This document shows positions 16,568 through 22,679 of a stretch of DNA of 33,449 nucleotides, in pieces. The stretch spans positions 1 through 33,449 of the forward strand of contig JAKAOH010000016.1 of the NCBI GenBank assembly GCA_021812285.1. Direction: 5' to 3'. Under the pieces are notes generated by a model. It searched no databases. It had not been told where the DNA came from and saw nothing but the letters and a program-made list of their open reading frames with translations. Both the position numbers and the translations under genes were made by a program. The first letter of the stretch is position 1. The number at the start of each line of letters is the position of its first letter. Source of the stretch: Acidobacteriota bacterium. GTDB taxonomy: Bacteria > Acidobacteriota > Terriglobia > Acidiferrales > UBA7541.

Positions 16568-18718
16568 TCATTTGCCGCCGCCCCAGCTGTAGCGCAAACC
16601 CACGCGATACGACACTCCGAGCGCGGGATAACCGAGCACGATCTGGTAGCGCCGGTCGAACATATTGTCCACGCGCGCGTAGCTGCTCAGCCCGTTGCCC
16701 AGCCGCCAACTCGCGCCGAGGTTCACGATGAAATAGCTCGGCACGCTGGTCATTCCGAGGCCCAGAAAATCGCTGTCGGTGCGTCGGCCGACGTATTGCG
16801 CTTCGGCATTCCAATCCGTGTGCGCCGCGGAAACGTTTGCCACCACGTTCGCCGCGTTCAGCGGACGCAAAAACAGCCGGTTGCCGGGCAATTCAGTGGG
16901 ATCGAAGGCGTTGGGGCTGCGCAAGACGAGCGTATTGTCGTAAGTGTAGTTCGCGGCGATCAGAAGCCAACGCGCCGGCTGCGATTCCACTCTCGCGTTT
17001 GCCCCATACGCGCGCGAGCGGTCGGTATTGAAAAACGTGCCGGTGCCGTACGGGCAGGCCGAAGTGATCGAGCCGAAGCCGAAGCTCACGATGTCGTAGA
17101 ATTCGTTGCGAAAACCGTTGAGGCTTACGCGCACGCGGTCGGCCGCAAACGTCTGATCCACGCCGGCGTTGAGCGTCTGGCTGCGCTCGGGCCGCAGCGA
17201 GGGATTGCCGGGAAAACAGGGATCGTTCGAAAACGTGTCGAGAAACGACGGCGACTTGATGCCCCAACCGTAGGAAGCATAAACGCGGGTCGGTCCCCAT
17301 TCCGGATTTCCTTCGCGCAGCGCGTAGGAAAGCCCCATGCGCGGCACGACGCGCGTGCCGAAGCTGGCATTGGCGTCGGCGCGCGCGCCAAGAACGGCGC
17401 TAAGCCGGCGCGTCGCCTGCACTTCGGCTTCGAAATAGCCGGCTTGATTATTGCGCCGCGCGTGGATCCCGCCGAAATAGCCGTTTTCGACCTCGTATTC
17501 GTAGCCGGCGGTCAGCGCGCCATCGCCGAAAAGGTAGCTCGACTGCTCCTCGAAATCGAGCCGGTTGTATTCGTTTCGCGTGGTGTAGATGGGCGGATCG
17601 GCGTAGGTTTCTCCCAGATAGGATTCCGCGGCGTCCAGGTGATGGTGCCATCGGCTGCCCGTTTGGAAGTCCCAGGCGAGATTCGCCGAAACGTTTTTCA
17701 GCGCGTCGTGCTGATTCGGGTCGTAGGGCAGAAAAAGCGTTTGCCCGGCCACGCCCGCGTCGCTCGCGCTCGAACGAGCCGCCAGGCGCAGCGTGTCGGT
17801 CGGCGAGAAATGCCAGCCGAAATCGCCGGAAAGGGAATTGTCGCGGAAACGGTCGTTCGGCCCCTGTCCCTGCGTTTCGAACGAAGCGATTCCCGCCGAA
17901 TAATCCAGTTTTCCCGCCAGGCCGCTCAAATTCGCGCCGGCGTGCCAGGTGGAAAATTTGCCGCCGTCGGCGAACAGGTTGATGCGCGGGCGGCGCGTCG
18001 TGCCGCGACGCGTCAAAATCTGGATCACGCCGCTCATCGCGTCCGAACCGAAAAGCGCGCTCGCGGCTCCGTGCACCACTTCCACTTTTTCCACGTTGTC
18101 GAGCGTGAAATTCGAGAAATCCACCGCGCCGCCCGGCTCGTTCACGGGCGTCCCGTCCACGAGCACCTTGGTGAAATTGGAATTTCCGCCGTCGAGAAAA
18201 AGGGATGTCACGCCGCCCATCGGCCCGAGCTGGGAAATCGAGACGCCGGCGAGCGAAGTGAGGAGCGGCGCAAGCCACGCATCGTGCCGCTGTTCGATTT
18301 CCTGCCGCGTGACGACGTCCACCGGCCCCACCGTGTCGGAAACGGGCACCGGTTCGGCTTCCGCCGTCACCGTCACCGTCGAGGCGAGCGGCCGCAACGC
18401 CAGCCGCAGGTTCCAGATCATCCGCTGCCCGGCTCCGGCTCGGATTTTCCGCTCGACGGGCGTGAAGGACGCGTCGCTGATGCGAACCAGATAGCGTCCA
18501 GGAGGAAGTCTCAGCGTGTAGCGGCCATCCGCCGACGAAACGGCGCGATAAATGGCGCGGGACACTTCACCTTTGGCGACGACCGTCGCTCCGGCGATCG
18601 GCGCGCCGCTCGGATCGGCCAGAATGCCGGTGAGGCGCGCGTTTTTCGGCGCGGCGAATAACGAAAACGAAAAGAAAAGCAGAAACGGGAAGAAAACTGC
18701 CTGGCGCTTGACGAACAT
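16568..18718 (-). CDS. btuB: TonB-dependent outer-membrane cobalamin receptor (BtuB-like)
   Basis: The 716-residue protein starts with a signal peptide (MFVKRQAVFFPFLLFFSFSLFAAP). A carboxypeptidase-regulatory-like domain follows (about 27-110), then a TonB-box-like VTVTAEAE. Next is a plug domain (about 125-235) with LVDGTPVNEPGG and VEVVHGAASALFGSDAMSGVIQI, as in BtuB and FepA-type receptors. The remainder is a beta-barrel of about 22 strands. The terminal region (VGLRYSWGGGK) ends unusually in GGGK after the last aromatic. The cobalamin assignment rests on the riboswitch directly upstream and on btuFCD immediately before it on the same strand; barrel sequence alone would not decide the ligand. 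The start has AGGAGG with good spacing, next to a hairpin that could gate translation. Confidence 0.82.
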   Translation of the reverse strand: MFVKRQAVFFPFLLFFSFSLFAAPKNARLTGILADPSGAPIAGATVVAKGEVSRAIYRAVSSADGRYTLRLPPGRYLVRISDASFTPVERKIRAGAGQRMIWNLRLALRPLASTVTVTAEAEPVPVSDTVGPVDVVTRQEIEQRHDAWLAPLLTSLAGVSISQLGPMGGVTSLFLDGGNSNFTKVLVDGTPVNEPGGAVDFSNFTLDNVEKVEVVHGAASALFGSDAMSGVIQILTRRGTTRRPRINLFADGGKFSTWHAGANLSGLAGKLDYSAGIASFETQGQGPNDRFRDNSLSGDFGWHFSPTDTLRLAARSSASDAGVAGQTLFLPYDPNQHDALKNVSANLAWDFQTGSRWHHHLDAAESYLGETYADPPIYTTRNEYNRLDFEEQSSYLFGDGALTAGYEYEVENGYFGGIHARRNNQAGYFEAEVQATRRLSAVLGARADANASFGTRVVPRMGLSYALREGNPEWGPTRVYASYGWGIKSPSFLDTFSNDPCFPGNPSLRPERSQTLNAGVDQTFAADRVRVSLNGFRNEFYDIVSFGFGSITSACPYGTGTFFNTDRSRAYGANARVESQPARWLLIAANYTYDNTLVLRSPNAFDPTELPGNRLFLRPLNAANVVANVSAAHTDWNAEAQYVGRRTDSDFLGLGMTSVPSYFIVNLGASWRLGNGLSSYARVDNMFDRRYQIVLGYPALGVSYRVGLRYSWGGGK

Positions 18719-18748: not shown

Positions 18749-18799
18749 TTGAAGGTTGTTCCGGCTCGCAGGCGTCCAATAAGGCGCCCGGCCTTCGCC

Positions 18800-18980
18800 G
18801 GAATGGGGGCTTCGCCGGTCTCCTGGCTCGGCGGCGTGTTCCTGCCGAAGCGCCTTCCCGGCTCGAGCGAGCCAGTGGCGCTTCGTACGTTCGCGTTCCG
18901 CCTTACAGTCGCGCGGCGGCGACGGTTTTGCACCGTCTTCCCGTGCACGAAGCTCCGGGTGAATGAGAGCGACGCTCGTT
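18800..18980 (-). promoter_or_regulatory. Cobalamin riboswitch upstream of btuB
   Basis: Read on the minus strand, all core pieces occur in order: GGGAAGACGGTGCAAAACCG (about 18942-18923), GCGACTGTAA, GAAGCGCCACTGG, CCGGGAAGGCGC and the B12 box GAGCCAGGAGACCGGC (about 18828-18813). This is a textbook adenosyl/methylcobalamin aptamer. Binding of B12 normally lowers expression of the downstream receptor. The aptamer lies between the btuD stop (19054) and the btuB start (18718). I see no strong promoter of its own, so readthrough from btuFCD is possible. Confidence 0.9.
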
Positions 18981-19917: not shown

Positions 19918-20939
19918 CCCAGCTTCCTTCGCAGCAGATAAATAAAGACCGGCGCGCCCGCAATCGCCGTCATCGCGCCTACCGGCAATTCCGTCGGCGC
20001 GATCACCGTTCGCGCCAGCGTATCGGCGATGATCAGCGCGAGCGCGCCGCCCAGCGCCGACGCCGGAATCAGCAGCCGGTAATCCGAGCCGAACAGCATC
20101 CGCATCACGTGCGGCACCAGCAGCCCGATGTAGCCGATCGCCCCGCTCACCGAAACCGCCAGCGCCGTCAGCAGCGAACCGGCCAGATAAACCACCAGTT
20201 TCACGCGGCCCACATTCACGCCCAGGTGCTCCGCTTCCTGTTCGCCGGCGGCCAGCAGGTTCAAATCCGCCGCGGTCGTGTAAACGCCGCCGATCGTCAT
20301 CCACGCCACCAGCATCAGCCAGCCCGTTCGCACCGGCAGCGGCGACGACAAATCGCCCATCAGCCAGAAAGCCATTCCGCGCAGGTCGCGTCCCGGCAGC
20401 GACGCCATCAGAAACATGATGATCGCGGAAAAAAACGACGCGGTGATGATTCCCGCCAGCAGCAGCGTGAAGCTGTCCAGGTGGCCGTGCCTGCGTCCTA
20501 GAAAATAGACCGCCGCGACCGTCAGCAGCGCGCCGGCAAACGCGGCCGCCATCGTGCCGATCGTCGTTCGCGGCTGAACGAGCAGAGCCAGAATCGCGCC
20601 CAGCGCCGCGCCGCTCGATACGCCCAGCACGTAGGGATCGGCCAGCGGATTTCGCAAGAGCGCCTGAAATCCCGCTCCCGCGACGGAAAGCGAAGCGCCC
20701 ACCAGCAGCGCCAGCAGCACGCGCGGCAGCCGCAAATCCAGCACGATCATCCGGCAATCGGCGGTCATGTGCGCCGTGTTGCCGGTGGCGGCTTCCACCA
20801 GACACGCGCCCACCTGCGGCGTCGAAATCGAAACGGCGCCCAGCCGCAGCGAAATGACGGCGACCACGAGCAGAAGCAGCGCCAGCAGCAGCGTCACCCC
20901 GATCACTTTCCTTGAAGTCAGCGGTTTCGAGGGGCTCAT
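19914..20939 (-). CDS. btuC: Cobalamin ABC transporter permease (BtuC-like, FecCD family)
   Basis: A 341-residue FecCD-family permease with about ten hydrophobic helices, the first at residues 11-30 (VIGVTLLLALLLLVVAVISL). Family blocks seen: DLRLPRVLLALLVGASLSVAGAGFQALLRNPLADPYVLGVSSGAALGA near the N terminus, then LAGIITASFF, AIGYIGLLVPHVMRMLFG for coupling to the ATPase, and ELPVGAMTAIAGAPVFIYLLRR at the end. Two copies in the inner membrane form the channel with two BtuD subunits. The start is ATG 20939, overlapping the btuF stop by 4 nt. Earlier in-frame starts fall inside btuF and are rejected. Confidence 0.93.
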   Translation of the reverse strand: MSPSKPLTSRKVIGVTLLLALLLLVVAVISLRLGAVSISTPQVGACLVEAATGNTAHMTADCRMIVLDLRLPRVLLALLVGASLSVAGAGFQALLRNPLADPYVLGVSSGAALGAILALLVQPRTTIGTMAAAFAGALLTVAAVYFLGRRHGHLDSFTLLLAGIITASFFSAIIMFLMASLPGRDLRGMAFWLMGDLSSPLPVRTGWLMLVAWMTIGGVYTTAADLNLLAAGEQEAEHLGVNVGRVKLVVYLAGSLLTALAVSVSGAIGYIGLLVPHVMRMLFGSDYRLLIPASALGGALALIIADTLARTVIAPTELPVGAMTAIAGAPVFIYLLRRKLG

Positions 20940-22129
20940 GATTGCGCCCTCGCCCGCGCGGATTTCGGCACCACTCCGGCTGCTGGCTGGGCGAACGCGC
21001 TCGGATGCAGCGCTCGCGCCAGTTTCTCGATCGCGCCGATGAGCGGAGGGCTCGGCCGGTTGATCGCGTCGTTGACCACCAGAATGTGGCCGTCCTTTAC
21101 CGCTTTGAGGTCTCGCCAGCCGGCGCGCCGCTCGAGCGAGCGCGCGATTTCCGCGGGCGTGCCCGCGCTCGAAGCGGGAAAGATGAGATATTGCGGCTGC
21201 TTGGCCAGAACTTCTTCCAGGCTGATGTGCGGCCAATCCTCGCTCACGCTCACCACGGATTTCGCTCCGGCCCACCGCAGCGCGTCGGCGAGGAAAGTAT
21301 TGCGCCCCGTGGTGATCAGCGGATCCTCCCAAACGACGAAAAACACGCTTTTCGGCGAATGCCCCGCCAGCCGCGCGTGCACGGCCTCCAGCCGCGTTTC
21401 GAGCCGCGCCGCCAGCGCTTCTCCTGCTGCGTTTTCGCCGATCACCGCGCCGATTTCCCGCACCGAGCGAATCATGCCTTGCACCGTGTGGACATCGGTG
21501 GCGTAAACGGGAATGCCAAGCCCCTCGAGTGAATAGACCGTTTCCCACCGGTTGATCGAACCGTCCACGAAAACCAGACTCGGTTGCAGCGCCGCGATTC
21601 GTTCCAGGCTTGGCTCGACCGGCTCGCCCACGCTTTCGACGTGCGGCTCGCCCGCGGGAATTTCGCTGAAATCGGTGACGCCCGCGATTTTTTCCGCCGC
21701 GCCCAGTGCGTAAAGGATGTCGGTGTCGTTCGGCGCGAGCGAAACGATGCGCGTCACGTCAGCCGGAACACTCACGCGCCGGCCCGCTTCATCCGTCACC
21801 GTGCGCGTGGCCGGTTTCGGTTGCCGCGCGGCTTGGAAAGCCGCAAGCGGCGCGCGAACTCCCTGGCTCGCCGCGTGCTGGCGGCTTGCCCGCGCGCTTT
21901 TCTCTGGCCCTGCCGCCTCGATGAATCCTGTCATCCTGAGGCCGAACGCAGAAGCCGAACGCGCTTTGCCGACTCTTAGCGGCCGAAGGATCTGCTTTCC
22001 CTGGTGGCTCGCGACGAATTTCGCGGATGGGAGCACTGCTGCCAGGCCGAGCGCCAACACGATGAGTGGATGAGCCGCGAGCAACGTCACACGGCGCTCG
22101 AACGCGCGTCTTGTTTTTTTCGAGAACAA
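20936..22129 (-). CDS. btuF: Cobalamin-binding periplasmic protein (BtuF-like) with a repeat inserted after the signal peptide
   Basis: The mature part (from about residue 108, TVTDEAGRRVSVPADVTRIVSLAPNDTDILYALGA) is a class III periplasmic binding protein of the BtuF type that delivers B12 to BtuCD. The only start compatible with a signal peptide is TTG 22129-22127, giving 397 residues: MFSKKTRRAFERR, then a hydrophobic run (LIVLALGLAAVLPSA). Between signal peptide and mature domain there are about 70 residues of non-homologous sequence. Part of this (about 45-70, ILRPLRVGKARSASAFGLR) is the translation of an interspersed repeat. The TTG lies in the T tract of a predicted riboswitch terminator with no ordinary ribosome binding site; the GGGG of the terminator arm might serve. 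The exact start is therefore uncertain. The stop overlaps the btuC ATG by 4 nt. Confidence 0.85.
   Translation of the reverse strand: MFSKKTRRAFERRVTLLAAHPLIVLALGLAAVLPSAKFVASHQGKQILRPLRVGKARSASAFGLRMTGFIEAAGPEKSARASRQHAASQGVRAPLAAFQAARQPKPATRTVTDEAGRRVSVPADVTRIVSLAPNDTDILYALGAAEKIAGVTDFSEIPAGEPHVESVGEPVEPSLERIAALQPSLVFVDGSINRWETVYSLEGLGIPVYATDVHTVQGMIRSVREIGAVIGENAAGEALAARLETRLEAVHARLAGHSPKSVFFVVWEDPLITTGRNTFLADALRWAGAKSVVSVSEDWPHISLEEVLAKQPQYLIFPASSAGTPAEIARSLERRAGWRDLKAVKDGHILVVNDAINRPSPPLIGAIEKLARALHPSAFAQPAAGVVPKSARARAQS
21928..22005. repeat. Interspersed CATCCTGAG...GAAGGATCTG repeat inside btuF
   Basis: On the plus strand this stretch runs from TCATCCTGAGG to GAAGGATCTGCTTTCCC, with short internal repeats (GCCGAACGC twice). 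I recognise it as a copy of a small repeat family dispersed in many bacterial genomes, normally between genes (translated fragments such as CHPEAER or ILRPLR). Here it is read in frame within btuF. Only one copy is visible in this window, so the repeat assignment rests on recall. Confidence 0.55.
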
Positions 22130-22165
22130 AAAAGCCCCGGCGGGTGGAGCGGGGCTCTGGGAGCC
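22127..22165 (-). terminator. Riboswitch-controlled intrinsic terminator of btuFCD, with competing hairpin
   Basis: On the minus strand AGCCCCG (22156-22150) pairs with CGGGGCT (22139-22133), and TTTTTG follows, a clear intrinsic terminator just before btuF. Upstream, GGCTC (22165-22161) can pair instead with GAGCC (22157-22153), which uses bases of the terminator arm. The two folds are mutually exclusive, as expected for a riboswitch expression platform. Another hairpin, ACACTC/GAGTGT, lies directly upstream (about 22187-22166). Confidence 0.7.
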
Positions 22166-22197
22166 ACACTCCTGGCCGCGAGAGTGTCAGCTTTCTC

Positions 22198-22250
22198 CGA
22201 TTCGGGCAGGTTTCCTGACTGACGGCCTTCCGCGCGTGGCGGAACGTGGA
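22198..22250 (-). promoter_or_regulatory. 3' part of a cobalamin riboswitch (B12 box) before btuF
   Basis: The minus strand reads GGAAGGCCGTCAGTCAGG followed by AAACCTGCCCG. This contains the P6-side GGAAGGCC and a fully conserved B12 box (AGTCAGGAAACCTGCC, about 22220-22205). Just 5' of it is a 6-bp hairpin TTCCGC/GCGGAA. No matching 5' aptamer motifs (GCGAAT, CCGCCACTGTGA) occur immediately upstream. They appear only 340 nt further up, beyond a repeat. Confidence 0.7.
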
Positions 22251-22254
22251 AACT

Positions 22255-22345
22255 ATTGCGCTACCTCAGTTCCTGTAGGGCACGGCTTGAGCCGTGCCGT
22301 AAAGCCGGCCAAATATCGAGGGCTTAAGCCCCTGAGGGCCGGCCG
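22255..22345. repeat. Interspersed hairpin repeat inside the btuFCD leader
   Basis: Two strong inverted repeats are adjacent. The first is GGCACGGCT-TG-AGCCGTGCC (22279-22298), a perfect 9-bp stem. The second is GCCGGCC (22304-22310) against GGCCGGC (22337-22343), enclosing the 12-bp palindrome GGGCTTAAGCCC (22320-22331). The CTGTAGGGCACGGCTTGAGCCGTGCC type is, from memory, abundant between genes in acidobacterial genomes. It separates the 5' and 3' parts of the cobalamin riboswitch. Confidence 0.6.
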
Positions 22346-22479
22346 AAGAGGTGATGCAACAGCTCCAAGGGTGTTTCCGGCTCGCGTTTTTCTATCCGTC
22401 GCGCAACGCCCCATTGGTCTTTCCGGCACAGCGCCTGCCCGCCGGCCTCCTGGCGGGAGGAACCTGCTTCTCTTCTGCG

Positions 22480-22650
22480 CTGCGTGGGCGCTGCTGACGC
22501 GTCGAGCGGCCCTTCCGGTCGCCGTTCTACGCGGCTTCCGTGGGCGTCCCTTCATCGGGACGGGAAACACCGGCCGATCACAGTGGCGGGACCGCGGCCG
22601 ATTCGCACGGCCTTCCCTTCACCCGATCCGGCTGCTTGTTTCAAATCGAA
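22480..22650 (-). promoter_or_regulatory. 5' part (or complete upstream copy) of a cobalamin riboswitch
   Basis: The minus strand reads GGGTGAAGGGAAGGCCGTGC, GAATCGGCC, then GCGGTCCCGCCACTGTGATC (about 22623-22571), the canonical 5' core of a cobalamin aptamer. Further down are ACGGAAGCC and ACCGGAAGGGC, where the family has GAAGCCACTG and GGGAAGGC. Next comes GCGTCAGCAGCGCCC (about 22500-22486), which could be a degenerate B12 box. So this is either a complete but decayed copy, or the 5' half of a riboswitch whose real B12 box lies at 22205-22220. Confidence 0.75.
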
Positions 22651-22679
22651 GTGTAGGCGCGCGCCCGAGCCGGTGTCAA
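22650..22679 (-). promoter_or_regulatory. Sigma-70 promoter of the btuFCD leader
   Basis: TTGACA (22679-22674) and TACACT (22655-22650) are 18 nt apart. Transcription would start near 22643, immediately before the riboswitch 5' core. The -35 box overlaps the stop codon of the transposase remnant, so the promoter sits exactly at the border of the former insertion. Confidence 0.6.

Follow-up and report, generated by a model that had tools for sequence, protein, structure and literature searches.

On the minus strand of contig JAKAOH010000016.1, analysed here as a stretch of 33,449 nt (the window), a btuF-like gene is preceded by the two ends of a cobalamin riboswitch, which raises the question of whether these ends belong together and what occupies the space between them. 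A sequence-only reading had placed the 5' core and the B12 box about 350 nt apart, and had proposed either that a peripheral stem had received a large insertion around which the aptamer still folds or that two tandem aptamers had existed. Direct reading of the sequence confirmed the positions of both ends (GGGAAGGCCGTGCGAAT and CCCGCCACTGTGA within 22617-22578 for the 5' core; AGTCAGGAAACCTGCC, the B12 box, at 22220-22205; both on the minus strand), and the distance from ACTGTGA to the box was measured as 357 nt. Our results indicate that the leader is very probably one complete cobalamin riboswitch (22631 to about 22197, minus strand) whose P8 domain has been enlarged by a 122-nt MITE-like insertion and whose predicted core fold is kept. 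The features of the locus, in the order of transcription, are as follows.

22650-22679, minus strand: promoter-like site TTGACA-18-TACACT (10 of 12 matches; 0.0 expected in shuffles)
22613-22631, minus strand: P2 and P3 5' strands, pairing with 22197-22210 (unconstrained fold; species permutation test)
22572-22617, minus strand: 5' aptamer core (P4, P5, CCACTGTGA) and P7 5' strand (ortholog HMM, E=2e-19; RF00174)
22563-22571, minus strand: P8 5' strand GGTGTTTCC, pairing with 22370-22378 (probability 0.99-1.0)
22509-22545, minus strand: arm GCCCAC..GGAAGGGC (fold; counterpart of RF00174 GCCACUG..CGGGAAGGC)
22380-22507, minus strand: third, variable arm, containing the proposed degenerate B12 box at 22486-22498 (fold; 109/121 identical to the sister species)
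22370-22378, minus strand: P8 3' strand GGAAACACC (fold; helix kept in relatives)
22247-22368, minus strand: inserted repeat, probably MITE-like (copy alignment, copy counts, absence at the site in two congeners, G003 and G004)
22223-22244, minus strand: short stem TTCCGC..GCGGAA (22228-22244) and P7 3' strand (22223-22227) (fold; in G003 this stem likewise comes after P8)
22205-22220, minus strand: B12 box (ortholog HMM match 22226-22129, E=1.9e-12)
22197-22210, minus strand: P3 and P2 3' strands, overlapping the end of the B12 box (fold)
22166-22187, minus strand: P13-like hairpin ACACTC..GAGTGT, expression platform (kept in relatives)
22128-22156, minus strand: intrinsic terminator with T-run (position and T-run kept in relatives)
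20939-22129, minus strand: btuF-like gene, start codon provisional (Pfam PF01497; NCBIfam BtuF model, below its equivalog cut-off)

BtuF-, BtuC- and ABC-ATPase-like genes for B12 uptake were found downstream, together with the terminator, as is usual for a cobalamin riboswitch. These genes are followed by a second riboswitch and then by a gene for a BtuB-like receptor. The promoter-like site (22679-22650) and the terminator (22156-22128) are both present, P13 and the terminator are conserved in relatives, and a TACACT-like box recurs upstream of orthologous leaders. Binding of a corrinoid would most likely switch off transcription of the btuF-btuC-btuD B12-uptake operon, putatively at the terminator. 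The second cobalamin riboswitch (18796-18967, minus strand) is complete, scores 89 bits, has a compact accessory domain and lies upstream of the BtuB-like TonB receptor gene (16568-18718).

Which 3' half belongs to the 5' core was addressed by homology searches. The Rfam cobalamin model RF00174 gave two matches in the window, at 18796-18967 (89 bits) and at 22517-22617 (33.9 bits). The latter is local and marginal (cut-off 31.5 bits), covers only model positions 46-168 without P2, and places the 3' half on AGAACGGCGACC and not on the true B12 box. An end-to-end RF00174 match above cut-off was not obtained for this leader, which is a limit of the model with long inserts and not the absence of a riboswitch part. 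For the orthologous leaders of two relatives the same model did produce full-length alignments that include the distal box (G016, 60.5 bits; G004, 43.9 bits); in both alignments the long insertion opens just before the P7 3' strand, and both show a counterpart of the GCCCAC..GGAAGGGC arm. A high-scoring complete aptamer contained in 22480-22650 alone, with the distal box scoring as chance, was not found, as the local match in this region is partial and its box is misplaced.

Because RF00174 gave no match on the isolated 3' half (22150-22280), HMMs of orthologous leaders were used instead. We read btuF leaders in relatives of the same family and order, including the sister species (G002) and the congeners G003 and G004 (two congeners are Acidobacteria MAGs), and compared their 5' half and their P7-3'/B12-box/P2-3' half with those of the genome studied here (G000). 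In 74 leaders, this one included, the same two ends occur in the same order, 16-363 nt apart, with gaps of 16-36 nt in most and of >100 nt in 15. HMMs of both halves were built without this genome and its sister, that of the 3' half from 72 orthologous sequences. The 5'-half HMM matched the window at 22657-22573 (E=2e-19) and the 3'-half HMM at 22226-22129 (E=1.9e-12), the next best match of the latter in the window having an E value of 0.31; the distal B12 box is therefore not a chance occurrence. By these HMMs the leader contains one 5' core and one B12 box. Within one family (f1, leaders L036-L126) the P7 hairpin is a minimal 16-36 nt in most leaders and 100-363 nt in a few genera, and for a single orthologous riboswitch a spread of 16-363 nt is unusually wide.

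We next considered whether the two ends are predicted to pair across the long gap. When 451 nt (22640 to 22190) were folded with ViennaRNA without constraints, P2, P3, P4, P5, P7, P8 and the GCCCAC..GGAAGGGC arm were recovered, along with the third arm, a single hairpin formed by the repeat and the short stem before the P7 3' strand. The fold energy was -214 kcal/mol compared with -188 +/- 6.5 kcal/mol in shuffles (z=-3.9), and no shuffle was as stable. P7 had pair probabilities of 0.95-1.0 and P8 of 0.99-1.0, and the five P2 pairs that were tested had 0.86-1.0, in predictions that take no account of tertiary contacts or co-transcriptional kinetics. The 13 nt proposed as a degenerate B12 box, GTCAGCAGCGCCC (22498-22486), turned out to be the 5' strand of the third arm, where they pair with GGCGCTG further on. 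Taken on its own, the energy of the P2 duplex is not enough to pick out the distal box against the GC-rich background of the window, where 75/9550 segments did as well, and partners were therefore permuted across species. P2 strands paired better with their own-species partner than with permuted partners (0/2000), as did P8 strands (5/5000), both counts that relatedness among the sequences can inflate. The P8 helix is retained in relatives despite sequence change.

Two further candidate pairings involve the expression platform. By reading of the sequence, CCGC in L5 is complementary to GCGG in L13, which would permit the L5-L13 kissing-loop contact. The strongest partner of the P2 5' strand anywhere in the leader is the 3' arm of the terminator (22635-22613 with 22156-22131, minus strand; -24.8 kcal/mol), and this predicted duplex could represent a possible antiterminator pairing or a GC-rich coincidence.

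Expansion of the P6-accessory (P7/P8) domain, which P7 closes, accounts for the 357 nt between the 5' core and the B12 box. The insertion of the sequence-only reading was present but consists of two things, an older P7/P8 domain typical of the group and a later 122-nt repeat of mobile type; most of the extra length is the old P8 accessory domain and the remainder is the repeat. Several related genera, and also families of the same order, have P8 with its arms, with sequence changes that preserve the helix; the three-arm accessory domain would be an older feature common to the genus and several related groups. An equally long accessory domain, of 363 nt, occurs in the btuF leader of G003 (L035 915-1285), which lacks the element; it has palindromic arms of a different kind (GGCCACCCTAAAGGGTGGC, GGCGACCCAACGGGTCGCC), which could not be clearly recognised as dispersed repeats of the G003 genome.

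The element itself spans 22247-22368. It has terminal inverted repeats at about 22349-22367 and 22247-22266 and, as the earlier reading had noted for the region between the two halves, two internal palindromes (about 22323-22309 and 22288-22269). In an alignment of copies taken from this genome and from a congener, the terminal inverted repeats TAGAAGCTGTTGC..GCAACAGCTTCTA are common to the copies but decayed in that of the window; in these copies the repeats are close to TAGAAGCTGTTGCAAAACC..GGTTTTGCAACAGCTTCTA and enclose the two inner palindromes. Matches to the element, mostly partial, numbered 14 in this genome, 22 in the sister species and 42 in G004, and the second palindrome alone occurred 15, 24 and 57 times, respectively, compared with 0 for a reversed control. 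The sister species carries the element at the same position in the leader. At this site G003 has only TGA (CACC-TGA-TTCCGC) between flanks that are similar but not identical, and the G004 leader has a different stem without the element. The element would have entered between P8 and the short stem before this species and its sister diverged.

These properties indicate a short, hairpin-forming DNA that is probably mobile and MITE-like. TA or CTAG stands at the ends of several copies, inseparable from the terminal repeats, and Y1 transposase-type matches (PF01797) occur in 4/4 genomes searched; neither a transposase nor a target duplication was assignable to the element from the aligned copies and the PF01797 search. 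Like MITEs and REP elements, it is short, multi-copy and palindromic and has no transposase of its own (PMC10969869; PMC3733652), and the terminal inverted repeats common to the aligned copies are a further likeness to MITEs. Assignment to the GTAG-tagged REPs was not adopted, as the CTAC end varies among copies; a 2013 survey reported GTAG REP families in Proteobacteria, Cyanobacteria, Chloroflexi and the PVC group, with Acidobacteria not listed (PMC10969869; PMC3733652). A published description of the element was not found in the literature searched. Many of the approximately 42 matches in G004 (L145-L164) are near full length with TA or CTAG ends, and the palindrome is also present in other Acidobacteria families, with up to 80 copies in one genome (G043).

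Because the element is an inverted repeat over its whole length, its RNA is predicted to close as one hairpin, with the pairing of P2, P3 and P7 unchanged. In silico, the mean P7 pair probability was 0.987 with the element and 0.984 without it. When the element was replaced by 120 dinucleotide shuffles of itself, the mean P7 probability was 0.37, and with only 13% of the shuffled inserts did P2/P3, P7 and P8 each remain at >=0.8. In the model, the undisturbed core can thus be accounted for by the element pairing with itself. The insertion is one event in two related species, and tolerance is accordingly shown once. Between these two species 200/200 core positions are identical, compared with 109/121 in the third arm, 114/125 in the element region, 246/283 at the 5' coding end of btuF and 134/226 in the upstream region. 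The third arm and element together differ at 23/246 positions versus 0/200 in the core (p=8.6e-7), and the core also differs from btuF in divergence (p=1.4e-9).

This evidence was set against the ways in which the locus can be read. Under the tandem-aptamer proposal, a first aptamer at 22480-22650 would carry the degenerate box and a second would have lost its 5' half, leaving its box at 22205. The marginal RF00174 match at 22517-22617 and a B12 box standing far downstream fit this account, but only a single core and a single box were found, the proposed degenerate box pairs within the third arm, relatives with gaps of 16-190 nt likewise carry each of the two only once, and the 5' core is connected to the distal box through P2 and P7. 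Given the ortholog HMMs, the fold and the complementarity of the 5' P2/P3 strand to the distal box side, we rejected a tandem or degenerate second aptamer as extremely improbable. The other option in the sequence-only reading, an aptamer folding around a large insertion in a peripheral stem, is the one favoured by the folding, the layout of the orthologues and the conservation.

A single riboswitch might still be a broken one. The size of the insertion, the marginal Rfam score and a gap far above the usual length would all be expected of a decaying pseudo-aptamer disrupted by the insertion, with btuF expressed without B12 control. We consider this very unlikely, since 200 core positions are unchanged in the two insertion-bearing species despite divergence of btuF and of the arms next to the core, the promoter, P13 and terminator are retained, and removing the element in silico does not alter the predicted pairing of the core. 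It is also rather unlikely, although less so, that the element has been co-opted and kept to tune the switch, for example through a longer transcription interval between the aptamer halves. Both sister species do retain it at one and the same site, where it lengthens the distance between the halves by about 120 nt; however, it diverges as fast as the variable arm (91% versus 90%), its terminal repeats have decayed relative to other copies, and two congeners do without it. The divergence and the decayed ends suggest that, within one intact riboswitch, the element is a passenger and not an adopted part.

The leader resembles the AdoCbl riboswitch class of RF00174 in its core, B12 box, P2/P3/P7, P8 domain, P13, terminator and btuF context. 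It differs from the class in that the accessory region of about 357 nt holds a copy of a dispersed inverted-repeat element and in that the standard search misplaces the 3' half. Variable insertions forming separate stem-loops and an optional P8-P10-P11 domain have been described for cobalamin riboswitches (PMC2258182), as has the fact that the P6 accessory region varies strongly in length (PMC9600662). The expectation that a working switch with a large insertion would be unusual holds only in part: a long accessory domain is nothing exceptional in the class, whereas an identified repeat inside it is less usual. The nearest case that we found, in a search covering few subscription papers, of a mobile repeat in a riboswitch leader is found upstream of the pneumococcal trp operon, where a BOX repeat separates two T-box riboswitches (PMC3049150). 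There too a dispersed MITE-type repeat is co-transcribed, and the BOX leader still appears to work, but the pneumococcal repeat lies between two separate riboswitches and the repeat described here lies inside one aptamer. Large accessory insertions being already known, what sets this case apart is the identification of a dispersed repeat element inside a single aptamer.

The origin of a long riboswitch insertion can rarely be recognised, although such insertions are amply documented; in this case the inserted piece is identifiable as a dispersed inverted-repeat element, two congeners have the site without it, and the pair of species carrying it allows the core to be compared. The shuffle test offers a simple reason for the tolerance of such elements in structured RNA. 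More tentatively, and with the balance of probability against it, palindromic mobile elements might be a recurrent source of the variable insertions of accessory domains: since their RNA folds back on itself, they could enter an aptamer and leave it intact, and some may then tune the timing of the switch. Since the standard model misplaces or barely detects very long accessory domains, some whole leaders may be called broken. In the sister genome, a second copy of 27 nt of the 5' core lies at a contig end (G002:C148:10-36, minus strand) and represents either a contig-end duplicate or a further riboswitch fragment.
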